Below, one piece after another: positions 47,586 through 55,181 of a stretch of DNA of 64,000 bases. The notes beneath the pieces were generated by a model that saw nothing but the letters and a program-made list of their open reading frames with translations, did not search any database and was not told the origin of the DNA. Each line of letters opens with the position of its first letter. Within the stretch, counting starts at the first letter, position 1. The position numbers and the translations under genes are program-made. The DNA is taken from the NCBI GenBank assembly GCA_016218045.1, contig JACRFB010000010.1:134101-198100 (forward strand). The letters are read 5' to 3'. Source of the stretch: Ignavibacteriota bacterium (lineage in GTDB: Bacteria; Bacteroidota; Ignavibacteria; SZUA-365).

Positions 47586-49307
47586 TCAATATCCGGCCGC
47601 CATTCCATGTCCGCGGGGATCGGATGCAGCCTCCCATCGCTTCTTGTTCGCATTATACACAATGCCTTCCACCCGGCCGAAGGGCCCGGTGAATTTGACC
47701 GCATGGCCCATTGATCTTAGTATGTCTATTGTGTTTTGCGGCAGCGCACCATTTTCAACATACAGAGTATCGGGTATCCACTGGTGGTGCATACGTCCGC
47801 GTGCGACTGCCGAATCGATTCTCAGTCCCTTGTCGATGACCGAAATCATCACTTGCAGAACAGAGGTAATAATCCGTGAGCCGCCCGGACTGCCGAGCAG
47901 CATAACGGGCTTGCCGTCACGGATGATGATGGTTGGGACCATCGAACTCAGCATACGTTTCCGTGGTTCAATGACATTAGCCACGCTGCCGGGGAGGCCG
48001 AATTGATTCAGAACTCCGGGAGCGGTGCTGAAGTCATCCATCTCGTTGTTAAGAAGAAAACCCGCGCCCGGCACAACAGACTTATTACCACACACATCGT
48101 TTAACGTTGTTGTAACGGAGACGGTATTCCCCCAGCGATCAACAACGCAGTAATGTGTTGTATTCTCCCCTTCATGCGGCAGCCCGCCACCCGGCGCAAG
48201 TGTTCTGCTATCCGTGGCACTTTCATCGGTAATTGTTTCGCGAAGCCGTCCTGCAGTTTCTTTCGATATCAACGAATCAACCGGCATGGATACAAAGGCC
48301 GGATCACCGAGGAAGCGCCACCTGTCGCGATACACCCGGCGCATCGCTTCGGCCGCACGATGCAGTGTGCGCGGTTCCAGGTCCTGCATGTCCTGCCGGG
48401 CATATCCTTCGAGAATATTCAGCAACTGCAACAGCGCCATACCGCCTCCGCTGGGAGGGGGCGGTACAAGAATCGTGTATCCACGATAGCCGCCGGAAAG
48501 AGGCCGTCGTTCCACGGCCACGTATTCGCGCAGATCCTCGTGGGTTATGATACCTCCGTCCCGCCGCATATGCGCGACTATCGAATCCGCGGTCACACCC
48601 TCGTAGAAACCGGCTCGTCCCAAGCGCGCGATGCGATCGAGTGTCGCGGCCAATTCCGTCTGACGGAACAGGTCGCCTTCGCGATACACCTTCCCGTTTT
48701 TTGTGTATACATGCATCGATGCCGGGTATTGTTCGAAATACGGGAGTTGCCGCTCGAGAAAATTCGCCTCGTATTTTTTCAACCTGAAACCATCACGCGC
48801 CAGAGCAAGAGCCGGTTGCATGACACGGACGCGTCCCCACGTGCCATACCTACGCAACGCGAGAAGCAAGCCATCGACGGCTCCTGGAACACCGGAGGCG
48901 AGCGGACCGCGCAATGAGGCCAGCGGCACCGGCCGGCCCGCGGCATCGAGATACATGTTTTTCCGCGCGGCGATCGGCGCGGTTTCGCGAGCATCGATGA
49001 CGCTCGCGCGTCCGTCCGCCATGCGAACCAGAATAAACGAACCGCCTCCGATATTTCCCGCGGACGGATACGTGACGGCGAGAGCAAATCCGATGGCGAC
49101 CGCCGCATCAACGGCATTTCCTCCCTCTTTCAGAACCGCGAGACCGGCGCGTGTTGCGCGCTCCTCGGCCGACACGACCATCGCGTGTTTCGATACAGCC
49201 AGGCGGCCCGCATTCTGCGCCTCCATGCACTGAACCACCAGAAGCGGGAGGAGACAAAATACACACTTGAAACGCAGAGGGTTTCGCAGTACTTTTTTAT
49301 TCAGCAT
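47586..49307 (-). CDS. ggt: Gamma-glutamyltransferase
   Basis: This 573-residue enzyme cleaves or transfers the gamma-glutamyl group of glutathione in the periplasm. It has a signal peptide (ending CMEAQ) and the large-subunit N-terminus (KHAMVVSAEERATRAGLAVLKEGGNAVDAAVA). The autocleavage site is GENTTHYCVVD at about residue 380, where the first Thr of TTH becomes the N-terminal nucleophile of the small subunit. The PSAGNIGGGSF and SSMVPTIIIRDGKP motifs are intact. The ATG at 49307 (or the adjacent one at 49310) follows GAGGTG. It is divergent from the third VWA gene, whose promoter overlaps the ggt 5' end. Confidence 0.95.
   Translation of the reverse strand: MLNKKVLRNPLRFKCVFCLLPLLVVQCMEAQNAGRLAVSKHAMVVSAEERATRAGLAVLKEGGNAVDAAVAIGFALAVTYPSAGNIGGGSFILVRMADGRASVIDARETAPIAARKNMYLDAAGRPVPLASLRGPLASGVPGAVDGLLLALRRYGTWGRVRVMQPALALARDGFRLKKYEANFLERQLPYFEQYPASMHVYTKNGKVYREGDLFRQTELAATLDRIARLGRAGFYEGVTADSIVAHMRRDGGIITHEDLREYVAVERRPLSGGYRGYTILVPPPPSGGGMALLQLLNILEGYARQDMQDLEPRTLHRAAEAMRRVYRDRWRFLGDPAFVSMPVDSLISKETAGRLRETITDESATDSRTLAPGGGLPHEGENTTHYCVVDRWGNTVSVTTTLNDVCGNKSVVPGAGFLLNNEMDDFSTAPGVLNQFGLPGSVANVIEPRKRMLSSMVPTIIIRDGKPVMLLGSPGGSRIITSVLQVMISVIDKGLRIDSAVARGRMHHQWIPDTLYVENGALPQNTIDILRSMGHAVKFTGPFGRVEGIVYNANKKRWEAASDPRGHGMAAGY
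49267..49297 (+). promoter_or_regulatory. Promoter of the third VWA gene
   Basis: TTG at 49267-49269, then exactly 20 bases, then TACTTTTT (49290-49297), a near match to TAnnTTTG. It lies inside the ggt 5' end on the opposite strand, about 57 bases upstream of the VWA start. Confidence 0.45.
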
Positions 49308-49353
49308 CATCACCTCGAGTTTCAACTACCGAGAAATCCCGCGCGGGGCCGCC

Positions 49354-50994
49354 ATGATTCGTCATTTCCGATTTATCCTTCAGTCTGTCGCGGCCCTGCT
49401 GTGCGCCTTCGCGCTGTTTGCAGAGACAGCGCAGGCCCAGCTCAGCATCTCGATCGACACACTGGACGCGTCGCAATTTCCGACCATCCGCGCGAAAGTA
49501 AAAGTGCGCTCCGGTTCGTCGGCGCTCACCGGATTAAGCGTGGCCAATTTTACCGTGTTCGAGGACGGTCTCATTCAGGCCCCGGTGACAGGCGGCTGCG
49601 ATGATACGGCACAGTCCGGTCCGGTCTCAGTGATGCTCATCATCGACAAAAGCAACAGCATGGGCCCGATTATCGGGAGCAACGCTATTGTGGACGCCAA
49701 AAGCGCCGCAACTAAATTTGTTGACCGGCTGGGTGCAGGCGACGAGGCGGCTCTCCTGTCCTTCAACGACAGCCCCTCGTACGATCAAAATTGGACCGCG
49801 GACAAAACACTGCTTAAAAACCGGATCAACGCGATACGGACGAGCGGCGGCACCGCCGTGTGGGACGCCATCATCACCGGCGCGATTTACATGCGCGGCC
49901 GTGTCAATCGAAAAGTCATGATTGTGCTCACCGACGGCGTCGACACAGAATCGAACAGTTCGTTCAACGCTGCGCGCGATTCGGTGCAGAAGAACAACGT
50001 CCGTGTTTACAGTATAGGGCTGGGAAACAATATCAACACCAGCGAACTGCGGAGTCTCGCAACCGCGACAGGCGGACGCTACTACAACGCTCCGAGCGGC
50101 GCCGATCTCGATCAGATTTACCAGGATATCACAAATCAGATCACTCCCACCGGGATCTGTGAACTGCGGTATCAGTCGCGGCTCACCTGTCTCGACGGCT
50201 CGCTGCACCGTGTGGAGATAGAGGTCCGTCATTCAAACATGGACGACCGCGACAACAGAAATTATACACTGCCTTACGACAGCACGTCCTTTTCGTACAT
50301 TACTCTCGCATCGGATGCGGACCTTGCCGTGGATGCGGGAGCATCGATCACGGTTCCTCTGCAACTGACTCGTGTGAGCAGCAACCGTCCGCCGCGCCTG
50401 TTTCGATTCGATGTAATCTACGACACCACACTCGTGCGACTCGATTCCGTGACACGCAGCAGACTCACCACCGGATACTCCATCACCACGGCGGCTCTGG
50501 CGCTGGGTCGACGTATCACTTTGAATGGATCGACGGCTGTACGCGACACGGGCATCCTCGCCTTTGCACATTTCTCCGCCCACGACAGAACAGAAAGCGT
50601 CAAAACACCCTTTGTGATTCAGGCGGTGGAAGTCGATCCCGCTTGTACGATCACCGCCGGCAACAACTCGTCCATCACGATCAACGGGGTGTGCCGACAG
50701 GCAGTGCAGCGCGCACCGATCCGCAGCACACAGAAGAGCGTGCTGCTCGCCGTCAGTCCGAATCCCTTCAATCCCGTTGCACGGATCCGGTACAGACTGG
50801 CCTTGGACGGTCCCGCTGTCCTTCGGTTGTACGATACGTTTGGACGACTTGTGCGTGAGACCGCCGTCGCGAGCACAACAGCCGGCGAACACCAGACCGT
50901 CGTCGACGGCGGCGGATTGGCCAGCGGCTCCTACCTCCTCGAATTTATCGCACCCGATTCGCGGGATACCAGGCGTATTTCCCTTCTCAAATAG
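49354..50994 (+). CDS. VWA-domain exported protein with T9SS sorting domain
   Basis: This 546-residue protein has a signal peptide (ending TAQAQ, residue 29) and a VWA domain (about residues 90-270) with intact MIDAS residues Asp98, Ser100 and Ser102 (IIDKSNSM) plus IVLTDGVDTES. A cohesin-like beta domain follows (about residues 325-450: PLQLTRVSSNRPPRLFRFDVIYD), then a type A sorting domain (LLAVSPNPFNPVARIRYRL, LRLYDTFGRLV, GSYLLEF). The VWA part resembles those at 35.1 and 38.1 kb but the rest is shorter. Likely a T9SS-exported surface protein. SRP RNA lies just downstream in the opposite orientation. Confidence 0.87.
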   Translation: MIRHFRFILQSVAALLCAFALFAETAQAQLSISIDTLDASQFPTIRAKVKVRSGSSALTGLSVANFTVFEDGLIQAPVTGGCDDTAQSGPVSVMLIIDKSNSMGPIIGSNAIVDAKSAATKFVDRLGAGDEAALLSFNDSPSYDQNWTADKTLLKNRINAIRTSGGTAVWDAIITGAIYMRGRVNRKVMIVLTDGVDTESNSSFNAARDSVQKNNVRVYSIGLGNNINTSELRSLATATGGRYYNAPSGADLDQIYQDITNQITPTGICELRYQSRLTCLDGSLHRVEIEVRHSNMDDRDNRNYTLPYDSTSFSYITLASDADLAVDAGASITVPLQLTRVSSNRPPRLFRFDVIYDTTLVRLDSVTRSRLTTGYSITTAALALGRRITLNGSTAVRDTGILAFAHFSAHDRTESVKTPFVIQAVEVDPACTITAGNNSSITINGVCRQAVQRAPIRSTQKSVLLAVSPNPFNPVARIRYRLALDGPAVLRLYDTFGRLVRETAVASTTAGEHQTVVDGGGLASGSYLLEFIAPDSRDTRRISLLK

Positions 50995-51160: not shown

Positions 51161-51293
51161 GGAACTAGGAACTAGGAACTAGGAACTAGGAACTAGGAAC
51201 TAGGAACTAGGAACTAGGAGCTAGGAGCTAGGAGCTAGGAACTGGGAACTGGGAACTGGGGAGTGGGAACTAGGAACTGGGGACTGGAGAGTG
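51161..51293. repeat. Heptamer tandem repeat array (GGAACTA family)
   Basis: Nineteen 7-bp units lie in perfect phase: eight GGAACTA, three GGAGCTA, three GGAACTG, then GGGAGTG, GGAACTA, GGAACTG, GGGACTG and a degenerate GAGAGTG. The array fills the space between the SRP RNA promoter and the cytochrome promoter. The order of variants suggests stepwise expansion from the right side. Confidence 0.95.
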
Positions 51294-51456: not shown

Positions 51457-52788
51457 ATGAAACTGACCGTGCTCCCCATGCTGCTTTTTGCAGCTCTTGT
51501 GTTCTTCCAGGGATGTTCGAAGGACGACGAGACTCCCGCACCGACGGATCCGACAGCGGGTCCGATGACCTGCCTTGAATGTCACAGCAGCGAAGCGACA
51601 CTGAAGAAAGTCGCTGCACCGAATCCACCGCCACCTCCCGGTGAAGGCGGCTGCGGCGGCACGCTCCCCGAGATGGAGGCCTGGCAGAAGGTCTATATCG
51701 GCGGGCCGAACGGACAGAAATTCCTGGCATCCACACATGGGAAAATGAAATGTGTTGCCTGCCACGGCGGCGTTGAGCCGGCGGCCGATAAAAATGCGGC
51801 TCATGCCGGCGGATTTATCGCCGCTCCTTCGAAGGACGCGCAAAACGCCTGCGGCAATTGCCATCCCGCGATTGCATCGAAAGATCTCACCAGTCTCCAC
51901 ACTCAGGGCTTTGGTCAGAAACACATGGTCGCGTTGCGCGGAGGATTTCCGGATTATGCATCATTCCCGGAGATGCTCAAGACAGGATATGATAAGAACT
52001 GCGGGAAATGCCATGCATCCTGCGGCGAATGTCATGTGATGCGTCCGCGTCAGGCGCTCGGCGGTTTTCTCGCCGCCCACGATTTCAAACGCATACCGGA
52101 TATGCGTGAGAACTGCACCGCCTGCCACTCGGCCCGCGTCGCGAACGCGTATTTCGGCGAGGCGTTCGGAACTCGCCCGGATGTGCACTACTCGAAATTC
52201 CCGGGTGGCCATTGCATCAACTGCCACAAGGGACAGGAAATGCACGGCGACGGGAAGATATACAATCAGCGGTATAAAATGGTCGACATGCCCCAGTGCG
52301 AGGATTGCCACGCCGAGAAGGCAAGCGCCAACCCGTATCATTCAAAACACTGGAACGACATAAGCTGCTACACATGCCATTCGCAGGAATACCAGAATTG
52401 CGGCTCCTGCCATGTGGGCACCGGCGTCCGCAACGGCCCGTATTTCGCGTTCAAGATCGGCCGCAACGCGATGCCGCAGACGAAACGCTTCAAATACGTC
52501 GTCGTTCGCAACGCGCCGTTTGCACCGGATACTTGGAGCAATTACGGCATCCCGCTCATAGCCAACTTCGACGCAGCGCCGACCTTCAAACTCGCATCCC
52601 CGCACAATATTCAACGTTGGACAGACAGGACCAAGATCGAGTCCGGAAAACCCTGCTTCGACGCCTGTCATATTCAGAACGGCCGCAACAAGAACTGGTT
52701 CCTGTTCGAAGCGGATCTCAAATCCTGGGAAGTCATGGCCAACAAACCCGTCGTTGTAGACGGAACACTCCCGGCCGGTTGGAATTAG
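51457..52788 (+). CDS. Decaheme c-type cytochrome lipoprotein
   Basis: This 443-residue exported protein has a signal peptide with a lipobox-like FQGC (Cys20) and ten CxxCH haem-binding motifs (CLECH, CVACH, CGNCH, CGKCH, CGECH, CTACH, CINCH, CEDCH, CYTCH, CGSCH). An additional C-terminal CFDACH, a CX3CH spacing, may bind an eleventh haem. Many further His residues could serve as distal ligands. It should carry electrons in the periplasm or at the outer membrane. I do not recognise it as MtrA, octaheme tetrathionate reductase or another named type. The ATG at 51457 opens the signal peptide; upstream in-frame sequence is not conserved-looking. A tandem rhodanese lipoprotein gene follows after 55 bases. 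Confidence 0.93.
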   Translation: MKLTVLPMLLFAALVFFQGCSKDDETPAPTDPTAGPMTCLECHSSEATLKKVAAPNPPPPPGEGGCGGTLPEMEAWQKVYIGGPNGQKFLASTHGKMKCVACHGGVEPAADKNAAHAGGFIAAPSKDAQNACGNCHPAIASKDLTSLHTQGFGQKHMVALRGGFPDYASFPEMLKTGYDKNCGKCHASCGECHVMRPRQALGGFLAAHDFKRIPDMRENCTACHSARVANAYFGEAFGTRPDVHYSKFPGGHCINCHKGQEMHGDGKIYNQRYKMVDMPQCEDCHAEKASANPYHSKHWNDISCYTCHSQEYQNCGSCHVGTGVRNGPYFAFKIGRNAMPQTKRFKYVVVRNAPFAPDTWSNYGIPLIANFDAAPTFKLASPHNIQRWTDRTKIESGKPCFDACHIQNGRNKNWFLFEADLKSWEVMANKPVVVDGTLPAGWN

Positions 52789-52843
52789 CACTCGTTCAAC
52801 ACCCAATAATACACCCCATCACTCATCAGTATCGGAGTACCTC

Positions 52844-53836
52844 ATGAATCGTTACACAAAGCTGTTCGCACTTCTTATCCCCGTCATGCTCTTTGTGAGC
52901 GCCTGCTCCAAGGATGACGATCCCGTCGTTCCGCCCGCAATAGACGAGGCGGATCTTCTCGTGAAAGAGCTGCTTGCCGGCGGTGATGCAGGATATCTGA
53001 ACACGGATTGTCCCGCCATCGTCACAGCGCAGATGGTGAAGGAAGATCTCGACGGCGTAAAGAAGTTTCATCTGATCGACGTGCGCGCGAAGGCCGACTA
53101 TGACAAGGGCCATGTGGCAGGCGCCGTGAATGTCGCCATCGCCGACATCCTCACGTATATGAAGACCATCACTCCCGCCTCGTACGACAAAATCGTTGTT
53201 ATTTGTTACTCGGGCCAGTCGGCTGCATGGACCACGGCAGTCCTTCGCATGAGCGGCTACAACACTGTGTTCTCGATGAAATTCGGCATGTCGTCATGGC
53301 ACGCGGATTTCGACAAGATTACCGCCAACATCAACAGCCAATATGCCACCCAGTTCACCGATGCAGTCACCGCAAAGGCGGCCGCAGGCACGATGCCGAC
53401 CATCAACACCGGCAAAACCACAGGCGCCGAAATTCTGAAGGTGCGCCTCGATTCCCTCCTCGCGGGTGGTTACTCGAAGTGCTCCATCGCGGCCTCCACT
53501 GTTATGCAGGATCCGACCCAGTACTACATCGTCAACTACTGGACGCTTGCGGATTATACAAGCATGAAACACATCCCGGGCGCCATCCAGTATACACCGA
53601 AGGCCGACCTGAAACTCTCGACCTTCCTCAAGACCCTTCCGACGAACAAGACCATCGTGGTGTACTGTTACACCGGTCAGACCAGCGCGAACGTGGCCGC
53701 CATTCTGCGCGTCCTCGGCTACGATGCAAAATCACTCAGCTTCGGCACACAGGCGCTCATCCACCAGCAGATGGTTGATGCGAAAAAGACCGCCTTCATT
53801 CCGACGGACTGCATGAATTTCCCGTACGTAAAATAA
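52844..53836 (+). CDS. Tandem rhodanese-domain lipoprotein
   Basis: This 330-residue protein has a lipoprotein signal peptide with lipobox VSAC (Cys21) and two rhodanese domains. The first (about residues 55-160) has LIDVRAKADYDKGHVAGAVNV and active-site loop CYSGQS with Cys121. The second (about 225-325) keeps GHIPGAI as KHIPGAI and active-site loop CYTGQT with Cys275, but its DVR motif is replaced by NYW. Both catalytic cysteines are present, so transfer of sulfane sulfur outside the cytoplasm is plausible. The residue after Cys21 (SKDDD) resembles that of the cytochrome (SKDDE), which suggests the same sorting signal. A terminator follows. Confidence 0.93.
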   Translation: MNRYTKLFALLIPVMLFVSACSKDDDPVVPPAIDEADLLVKELLAGGDAGYLNTDCPAIVTAQMVKEDLDGVKKFHLIDVRAKADYDKGHVAGAVNVAIADILTYMKTITPASYDKIVVICYSGQSAAWTTAVLRMSGYNTVFSMKFGMSSWHADFDKITANINSQYATQFTDAVTAKAAAGTMPTINTGKTTGAEILKVRLDSLLAGGYSKCSIAASTVMQDPTQYYIVNYWTLADYTSMKHIPGAIQYTPKADLKLSTFLKTLPTNKTIVVYCYTGQTSANVAAILRVLGYDAKSLSFGTQALIHQQMVDAKKTAFIPTDCMNFPYVK

Positions 53837-53858
53837 GACTCGCTGATCCGTTTATTTG

Positions 53859-53894
53859 AACAGCCGCGGCGTCTCGCCGCGGCTGTTTCATTTT
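53859..53894 (+). terminator. Intrinsic terminator of the cytochrome/rhodanese operon
   Basis: AACAGCCGCGGC (53859-53870) and GCCGCGGCTGTT (53876-53887) form a perfect 12-bp stem with a 5-base loop, followed by TTCATTTT. The flanking A/T residues may let it also serve the convergent redoxin gene. Confidence 0.9.
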
Positions 53895-53922: not shown

Positions 53923-54612
53923 CTATCGTCGGATCGCGCAGCCGCGCGCGGGCTTCTCGGACGCGGCCAGCGCCGTTCCCATGAGAAGGGTGTCCAGCGC
54001 GAGGGCGAGCGAACGCTCCTCGACGAGAATGCCGCTTTTGTCGTCGTCGATACGGCCATGGTAGACGAGAGTCCAGTCCGGCCTGAATACAAAGACTTCC
54101 GGCGTCACCGTTGCACCCATCGAATCCGCGGCGGCCTGCAATTCGTCGCGATACATCGTGAGCGGGTATTTTTTCGCCGTGACATAGCGTTTTATCTGAT
54201 CGATGGATTCATCCGTATTTGCATCGATGGCGGCAAAACCCACACCCTTCGGCGCGTACATATCCAACAGCTCCTTCAGGCGGCCCGTGTACCCGTCGGA
54301 ACACGGGCAGGTGGCGGATGCAAAGACGAGCACTGTTAGCGAGGGTCCTGCGAGCGACCGTATCGAAACTGGCGTGCCATCGAGCGCTGACAACGCAAGA
54401 TCAGGGAGAGCGCTACGGAACAAGCGCGACGTCCGTGATGTACTGTCGGTTTCACACACCATGGGTGATGCCGGAGCATCCTCGCCGCCTTTTATAACGT
54501 AGATGGCCGCAACCGTACCGAGCACGAGGAAGGCGGCAATGGACGTGAGGAGCAATACGCGGACCTTCCGCGCGTTCCGATCCATACCGGCAGTATCCGG
54601 AGGCGCACTCAC
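53923..54612 (-). CDS. Membrane-anchored redoxin (AhpC/TSA-like)
   Basis: This 229-residue protein has one N-terminal membrane helix (about residues 18-40) and an exported thioredoxin-fold domain of the redoxin type: LPDLALSALDGTPVSIRSLAG, then VLVFASATCPCSDGY. The active-site region has closely spaced cysteines (CPC) instead of a CxxC, similar to the peroxiredoxin-like redoxin group. The cis-Pro loop is VTPEVFVF. It probably reduces or oxidises thiols outside the membrane. The GTG start overlaps the stop of the DUF192 gene (GTGA); an ATG at 54585 is possible. Confidence 0.82.
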   Translation of the reverse strand: MSAPPDTAGMDRNARKVRVLLLTSIAAFLVLGTVAAIYVIKGGEDAPASPMVCETDSTSRTSRLFRSALPDLALSALDGTPVSIRSLAGPSLTVLVFASATCPCSDGYTGRLKELLDMYAPKGVGFAAIDANTDESIDQIKRYVTAKKYPLTMYRDELQAAADSMGATVTPEVFVFRPDWTLVYHGRIDDDKSGILVEERSLALALDTLLMGTALAASEKPARGCAIRR

Positions 54613-55181
54613 TTCGCACCGTTCATTGTAAAACGAATCTTGTCGCCTTCAACGATACCATGCCGCGCACAATACCCGGCATTGGTCTCCACCACGTATT
54701 TCGCCGGGGCGCCGGATTCAAGAGACGCATCGGAATACGGCGTTGTGTTCTGGTGAATCTTCACGATCGACATATCTTCACCAACAAACATAATATCCAG
54801 AGAAAGCGGCGTATTCACCATCCAGAAGGACCGGACGTCCGTATCCTCAAAAATGAACAGCATGCCCTGATCCTCGCTCATGGAAGTGCGTCCCATCAAA
54901 CCACGCGTACGTGAGGCATCGTCATTTGCCACTTCCACCTGCACCGACGACTTCCCGGCACCATCGGCACCGGCGAAGGTGAGGGATGCATCGGCACGAA
55001 GCGGCGACTGTACCGGATTGTATGATTCGCTTCGTTCCACGGTACTTTCCTGTCTATTTGGAGAAAAGATTGTCCGTCCGATATAAAGCAGGGCTGCAAC
55101 CGCAAGGATGCCCACGGCAATCAAGAGGCGTGTGCGCAGCGGATTGCCGCCGCTTTGTTGTGACTTTCGTGTTTTTTGCAT
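54609..55181 (-). CDS. DUF192-domain exported protein
   Basis: This 190-residue protein has an N-terminal membrane helix (about residues 17-36) and a DUF192 domain in the second half: VEVANDDASRTRGLMGRTSM, then GMLFIFEDTDVRSFWMVNT and DIMFVGEDMSIVKIHQNTTPY, ending with YVVETNAGYCARHGIVEGD. DUF192 proteins are conserved and exported, but their function is not established. It is translationally coupled to the redoxin gene downstream. Whether they work with the neighbouring convergent cytochrome and rhodanese genes is unknown. Confidence 0.88.
   Translation of the reverse strand: MQKTRKSQQSGGNPLRTRLLIAVGILAVAALLYIGRTIFSPNRQESTVERSESYNPVQSPLRADASLTFAGADGAGKSSVQVEVANDDASRTRGLMGRTSMSEDQGMLFIFEDTDVRSFWMVNTPLSLDIMFVGEDMSIVKIHQNTTPYSDASLESGAPAKYVVETNAGYCARHGIVEGDKIRFTMNGAK

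Follow-up and report, generated by a model that had tools for sequence, protein, structure and literature searches.

A decahaem cytochrome lipoprotein and a tandem-domain rhodanese lipoprotein form a conserved gene pair in Ignavibacteria, with a possible link between electron transfer and sulfane sulfur

Why does a gene for a multihaem cytochrome lie directly before one for a rhodanese lipoprotein, and do the two products work together? The question is raised by a 64,000-nucleotide stretch of DNA from an Ignavibacteriota bacterium (GenBank assembly GCA_016218045.1, contig JACRFB010000010.1, positions 134,101 to 198,100 of the forward strand), hereafter the window. A sequence-only reading of it had described a lipoprotein with ten CxxCH motifs plus one CX3CH, encoded 55 bases before a lipoprotein with two rhodanese domains and both active-site cysteines. 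The coordinates and motifs of both genes, which lie on the same strand and are separated by 55 bp, were confirmed:

51457..52788, + strand: gene for the lipoprotein multihaem c-type cytochrome (443 amino acids, lipobox Cys20, ten CxxCH motifs and one CX3CH)
52844..53836, + strand: gene for the tandem-domain rhodanese lipoprotein (330 amino acids, lipobox Cys21), 3' of the cytochrome gene

Orthologues were searched for in 100 related genomes plus that of the window and, in a second search, in 395 genomes from across the phylum. The first search rendered 23 genomes with a full or near-full cytochrome orthologue (43 to 69% identical to the window cytochrome) and the second a further 18, giving a total of 41 genomes of the class, over which the identity ranged from 42 to 69%. 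These 41 are spread over eight families. In 40 of them the rhodanese gene lay directly 3' of the cytochrome gene, and in the remaining one (G052) it starts there but is cut by the contig end after 92 profile positions. A check of 46 genomes gave both genes in 23, neither in 23 and a single one in none. For its part, the rhodanese profile retrieved from the 395-genome sample the 27 genomes that have the cytochrome, along with four more in which the rhodaneses are of more distant subfamilies. A single-sequence scan of 84,980 species returned close relatives only, and searches for plasmid-borne relatives gave nothing useful. The adjacency, seen in all 41 genomes with one partner truncated at a contig end, together with the co-occurrence, supports the view that cytochrome and rhodanese constitute a functional unit. 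The conservation of the partner across related genomes, on which the sequence-only reading had hung its proposal, was thus borne out: the rhodanese was always found with the cytochrome, and no orthologous cytochrome without it was found among the 41 cytochrome-bearing genomes.

The rhodanese matched PF00581 over two stretches (E 8e-28; 97.3 bits against a cut-off of 22.2) and belongs to the rhodanese superfamily. Its domains are placed as follows:

53027..53305, + strand: rhodanese domain 1 (PF00581), with active-site Cys121 at 53204-53206 and the D79/R81 motif
53552..53746, + strand: rhodanese domain 2 (PF00581), with active-site Cys275 at 53666-53668

Both cysteines sit in CYxGQ loops, and C121, C275, D79 and R81 were kept in all 40 of the 40 rhodaneses that partner the cytochrome; domain 2 of the window protein has N-Y-W in place of the D-x-R of domain 1. 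By contrast, in a clade of paralogues whose genes follow those of a TonB-dependent receptor and a DUF4249 lipoprotein, position 121 was Ser in 12 of 12 sequences and position 275 was Ser, Asp or Glu, the remainder of the active-site loop being largely intact. These paralogues, lacking both cysteines, offer a natural control for the cytochrome-paired rhodanese: the fold persists without the cysteines elsewhere but never beside the cytochrome, which suggests that sulfur chemistry goes with the cytochrome. Of the earlier claim that the locus couples electron transfer to a sulfur compound, the unit stood (41/41), and the sulfur chemistry gained indirect support from the cysteines kept here and lost in the TonB-linked paralogues.

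Tandem rhodaneses with both cysteines replaced were seen at the TonB/DUF4249-linked loci L096, L097, L098, L099, L158, L159, L160 and L162, with five copies in a row at L158. Genome G010 has a second rhodanese copy (L100 1-1563) in a 521-amino-acid frame with an extra N-terminal part. Sequence and Foldseek comparisons matched tandem and single rhodaneses, the best match being 6mxv; the structure model was poor (predicted local distance difference test, pLDDT, 52) and was used for Foldseek only.

As for the cytochrome, the conserved positions that bear on its function are these:

51571..52413, + strand: span of the ten CxxCH haem-binding motifs, each kept in at least 40 of 41 alignment rows
51652..51654, + strand: Cys66 in GCGG, outside the haem motifs, kept in 40 of 41 rows, the remaining row having no N-terminus
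52654..52671, + strand: CX3CH motif C400-H405, kept in 41 of 41 rows, a probable eleventh haem site

The first cysteines of the CxxCH motifs are residues 39, 99, 132, 182, 189, 220, 253, 281, 304 and 315, and exactly ten CxxCH plus one CX3CH were counted in each of the 40 full-length orthologues. These motifs are not due to chance, since no shuffled version of the protein, out of 20,000, had more than three CxxCH. With several CxxCH motifs and an export signal, the protein is a multihaem c-type cytochrome, and it matched PF14522 with 37.2 bits (cut-off, 24.8). It is not a member of the DmsE/MtrA decahaem family TIGR03508 (22 bits against a cut-off of 192), no solved structure matched it in sequence, and no close match to an enzyme with another role, a result that would have spoken against the earlier proposal, was found. 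Weak relatives with 7 or 8 haems, about 30% identity over the haem core and no rhodanese (L063-L066) were judged to be a different family.

Cys66 is the sole invariant cysteine beyond the haem motifs and the lipobox and is a candidate haem ligand or sulfur acceptor. Ten non-motif histidines were well conserved in the alignment, against eleven haem sites; given this difference and the invariant Cys66, an open or Cys-ligated haem is possible. H230, which is near-invariant (38 of 41 rows), is Asn in the window cytochrome (window 52144-52146), and the position may be that of a distal haem ligand, lost or replaced there.

The mature proteins begin with CSKDDE (cytochrome) and CSKDDD (rhodanese), each after a lipobox. 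In Bacteroidetes, C-X-K-(D/E)2-X is the optimal form of the lipoprotein surface-export signal (LES), for which B. fragilis has S-D-D-D-D (PMC5080379). Both window proteins carry the C-X-K-(D/E)2-X form. Orthologues keep acidic residues at the N-terminus rather than the exact letters (CSDDDD, CDEEDD, CSEDKD), and LES-like starts were found in 18 of 39 cytochromes and 29 of 40 rhodaneses, against 2 of 44 other lipoproteins of the same loci, a background set that was small, partly noisy and contained some false lipoproteins. Because their N-termini match the published export signal, both proteins probably sit on the external side of the outer membrane. The shared Cys-Ser-Lys-Asp-Asp had been taken as a sign of co-localisation, which agrees with the LES match. 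As a tag specific to the pair it was set aside in favour of a general export signal, most other pairs having no identical N-termini.

As to what such a pair might do, we tentatively favour, at somewhat less than even confidence, a surface two-protein module in which electrons would move between sulfane sulfur bound to the rhodanese and a porin-cytochrome conduit. As an electron carrier, the cytochrome would link the porin-cytochrome conduit of the class with the cell exterior, while the rhodanese would capture sulfane sulfur from outside (or selenium or tellurium species of like chemistry), forming a persulfide at Cys121 and Cys275, and hand it to the cytochrome for electron transfer. Reduction, with release of sulfide in an extracellular respiration of polysulfide, elemental sulfur (S0), thiosulfate or a chalcogen oxyanion, appears more likely than oxidation. 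The physical contact of the two proteins, their surface location, the substrate, the direction and any role of Cys66 are what we infer. A narrower version, which we consider unlikely, would make the rhodanese persulfide the immediate substrate of the cytochrome, the latter acting outside the cell as a sulfane-sulfur reductase or oxidase that needs no molybdenum, with Cys66 and a haem lacking a distal His in its active site.

In three families (f6, f11 and f13) the pair lies inside a larger porin-cytochrome cluster with genes c5, c3, c4 and c2, followed by the decahaem cytochrome and the rhodanese. There, c5 is a tetrahaem c554-type cytochrome of variable position, c3 a barrel-like outer-membrane protein of about 423 amino acids, with no Pfam or NCBIfam match and a barrel judged from sequence only, c4 a 12-14-haem cytochrome and c2 a lipoprotein cytochrome with 5-28 haems; the f11 cluster additionally has a PAS/sigma-54 regulator before the decahaem cytochrome. 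Judged by these predicted products, the layout is that of a porin-cytochrome conduit. Of 60 genomes, 52 had the c3 protein and 59 a c4-type match, whether or not they carried the pair, although other cytochromes may account for the weaker c4 matches. In the window genome, a c3-c4-c2 set (putative barrel, 11-haem cytochrome and 5-haem lipoprotein) lies on another contig (G000:C6:66162-69423), and the pair in the window has no barrel protein next to it. In f4, f6, f13, f14 and f21, the pair often has a gene for a MarR-type regulator as its neighbour. Very large cytochromes, with 28 and 24 CxxCH motifs, were also seen near the pair (L057 12478-15102, - strand; L123 11920-15411).

Several results weigh against the module as proposed. 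The pair does not adjoin conduit genes in f1 (the family of the window), f4, f14, f21 or f22, and the f21 genomes carry it without c3. Thus, the conduit link is not universal, and the pair would be an accessory module that may join a conduit cluster but does not belong to it permanently. A PsrA-type match was absent, at the threshold used, from the window genome and its family, and was not associated with the pair. In addition, the structure prediction of the cytochrome from four sequences reached a pLDDT of 29, a model from which neither haem ligation nor an open active haem can be read, and the LES comparison carries the weakness of its small background set. A PsrABC-like operon with YeeE and MobA lies about 4 kb from the pair in one genome (G311; L117 13261-18999; L163); the general PsrABC link that it prompted was rejected over 62 genomes, PsrA occurring in only some of those that bear the pair.

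The same clusters would also fit a general accessory of extracellular electron transfer, in which the cytochrome would serve metal oxides or electrodes and the rhodanese would be a helper, for example by shielding surface haems from sulfide or polysulfide. We hold this to be possible, if somewhat unlikely. The pair does lie within a porin-cytochrome cluster in three families, many conduit-bearing genomes are without it, as an accessory would predict, and Geobacter extHIJKL, a cluster that includes a rhodanese lipoprotein, has a part in the reduction of Fe(III) and Mn(IV) (PMC6148476). However, the strict one-to-one retention of rhodanese and cytochrome, even in f21 without the barrel, suggests a joint need and not an optional helper.

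Geobacter is also the source of a reading in which the pair would reduce or detoxify chalcogen oxyanions (selenite or tellurite) as a functional equivalent of extHIJKLMN, which we regard as decidedly unlikely. The Geobacter cluster joins a rhodanese lipoprotein, a porin, the 12-haem ExtM and the 10-haem ExtN, and mutation of extI impairs the reduction of selenite and tellurite (PMC5877670). A sister rhodanese clade of another class (f37, G204) is found near an ExtM-like 12-haem cytochrome (157 bits), and the cytochrome of the pair gave weak ExtM/ExtN profile matches. In G204 the region (L156 8097-19500 and L164 1022-5858, rhodanese lipoproteins included) also holds an operon for a PhsA/PsrA-type molybdoenzyme, two YeeE-type transporters, a rhodanese of inner-membrane type and a Porin_O_P protein, a setting that we count in favour of the sulfane-sulfur module. 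The matches of the pair's cytochrome reached, however, only 22-31 bits against cut-offs of 200-800 and covered few haem motifs: 31 bits against 800 for the ExtM model and, in a relative only, 22-23 bits against 200 for ExtN/ExtO. None of the Ext models matched the rhodanese in the profile search, and next to the pair there was no sign of a Porin_O_P of the ExtI type. The cytochrome is thus not ExtM or ExtN by the model test, yet it may work alike.

Were electrons to flow the other way, the rhodanese would take sulfide-derived or mineral sulfur and the cytochrome would pass electrons inward or to an external acceptor. Distant 7-8-haem cytochromes do stand beside TusA-, DsrE- and DsrMK-like genes (L065 5277-9907, L066 5293-9955; judged from sequence starts), but in the neighbourhoods read, where some of the neighbours were scanned, we noticed nothing around the pair that could be recognised as a gene for sulfur oxidation, and we find this direction improbable. 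Least credible by far is an adjacency serving assembly only, such as a rhodanese supplying or protecting thiols in cytochrome c maturation, a role hinted at by haem-biosynthesis-like genes downstream of the pair in f11 (L122, L124; judged from sequence starts) but at variance with a lipoprotein bearing an outer-surface type signal and with genomes rich in other multihaem cytochromes that, lacking this one, have no rhodanese either.

From the spacing of the two genes and their order in 41 genomes, we infer that they form one operon. It is followed by this feature:

53858..53888, + strand: intrinsic-terminator-like hairpin with a 14-bp stem, 10 of the pairs being G-C

The sequence-only reading had called it a strong terminator. 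The hairpin is there, but its T-run is modest (CATTTTATGC) and a loose terminator scan led us to expect about three terminator-like sites by chance in the region, so the label reflects stem length alone. No promoter was identified for the pair. A 7-base tandem repeat, GGAACTA, occurs in about 17 copies at window 51161-51278, some 180 bp upstream of the cytochrome start. The gene just before the pair (window 49267-50994) encodes a protein that has a von Willebrand A domain and matches cohesin and a type IX secretion tail weakly, and directly downstream (window 53923-55181, - strand) are genes for a redoxin/AhpC-TSA protein and a DUF192 protein.

No description of this cytochrome-rhodanese pair was found in the open literature, a coverage that leaves most subscription papers outside. 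The earlier statement of knowing no described system with exactly this pair calls for a qualification: rhodaneses beside multihaem cytochromes had already been published for Geobacter (PMC6148476, PMC5877670) and Dethiobacter (PMC10376724). In Dethiobacter alkaliphilus, SirA/Otr-like cytochrome genes are likewise grouped with rhodanese-domain genes, and sulfur respiration was proposed for them (PMC10376724); those cytochromes, however, are octahaem and of another family, the organism is of another kind, and no lipoprotein pair is described. With 6mxv of Francisella and the thiosulfate sulfurtransferases, the rhodanese shares its two domains; it differs from 6mxv-type proteins in being a surface-type lipoprotein with an active-site cysteine in both domains and a constant cytochrome partner.

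The c3-c4-c2 set resembles the Pcc clusters, including Ignavibacterium album IALB_1839/1838 (PMC4245776), in its putative barrel, multihaem cytochrome and outer-membrane multihaem lipoprotein. Our guess is that c3 and c4 are the counterparts of IALB_1839/1838. No rhodanese is named in the text of PMC4245776, and the pair is an addition to the c3-c4-c2 core. As a small two-protein target, it would allow the question of whether extracellular electron transfer couples directly to sulfane sulfur to be addressed, which bears on sulfur and metal cycling.

The closest parallel is Geobacter sulfurreducens extHIJKL(MNOPQS), which encodes the rhodanese lipoprotein ExtH, the outer-membrane barrel ExtI and several multihaem cytochromes (PMC6148476, PMC5877670). 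Both systems set a rhodanese-family lipoprotein gene with a multihaem cytochrome; ext also has the outer-membrane barrel and 12-haem and 10-haem cytochromes, whereas the rhodanese of the present pair has one particular decahaem lipoprotein as its partner, in which CX3CH adds an eleventh site, and in many cases there is no barrel nearby. In Geobacter the rhodanese is variable, a different one being present in 10 of 18 clusters (PMC6148476). Rhodanese lipoproteins beside electron conduits have so far been noted as an unexplained variable component (ExtH), whereas the pairing of cytochrome and rhodanese reported here is invariant.
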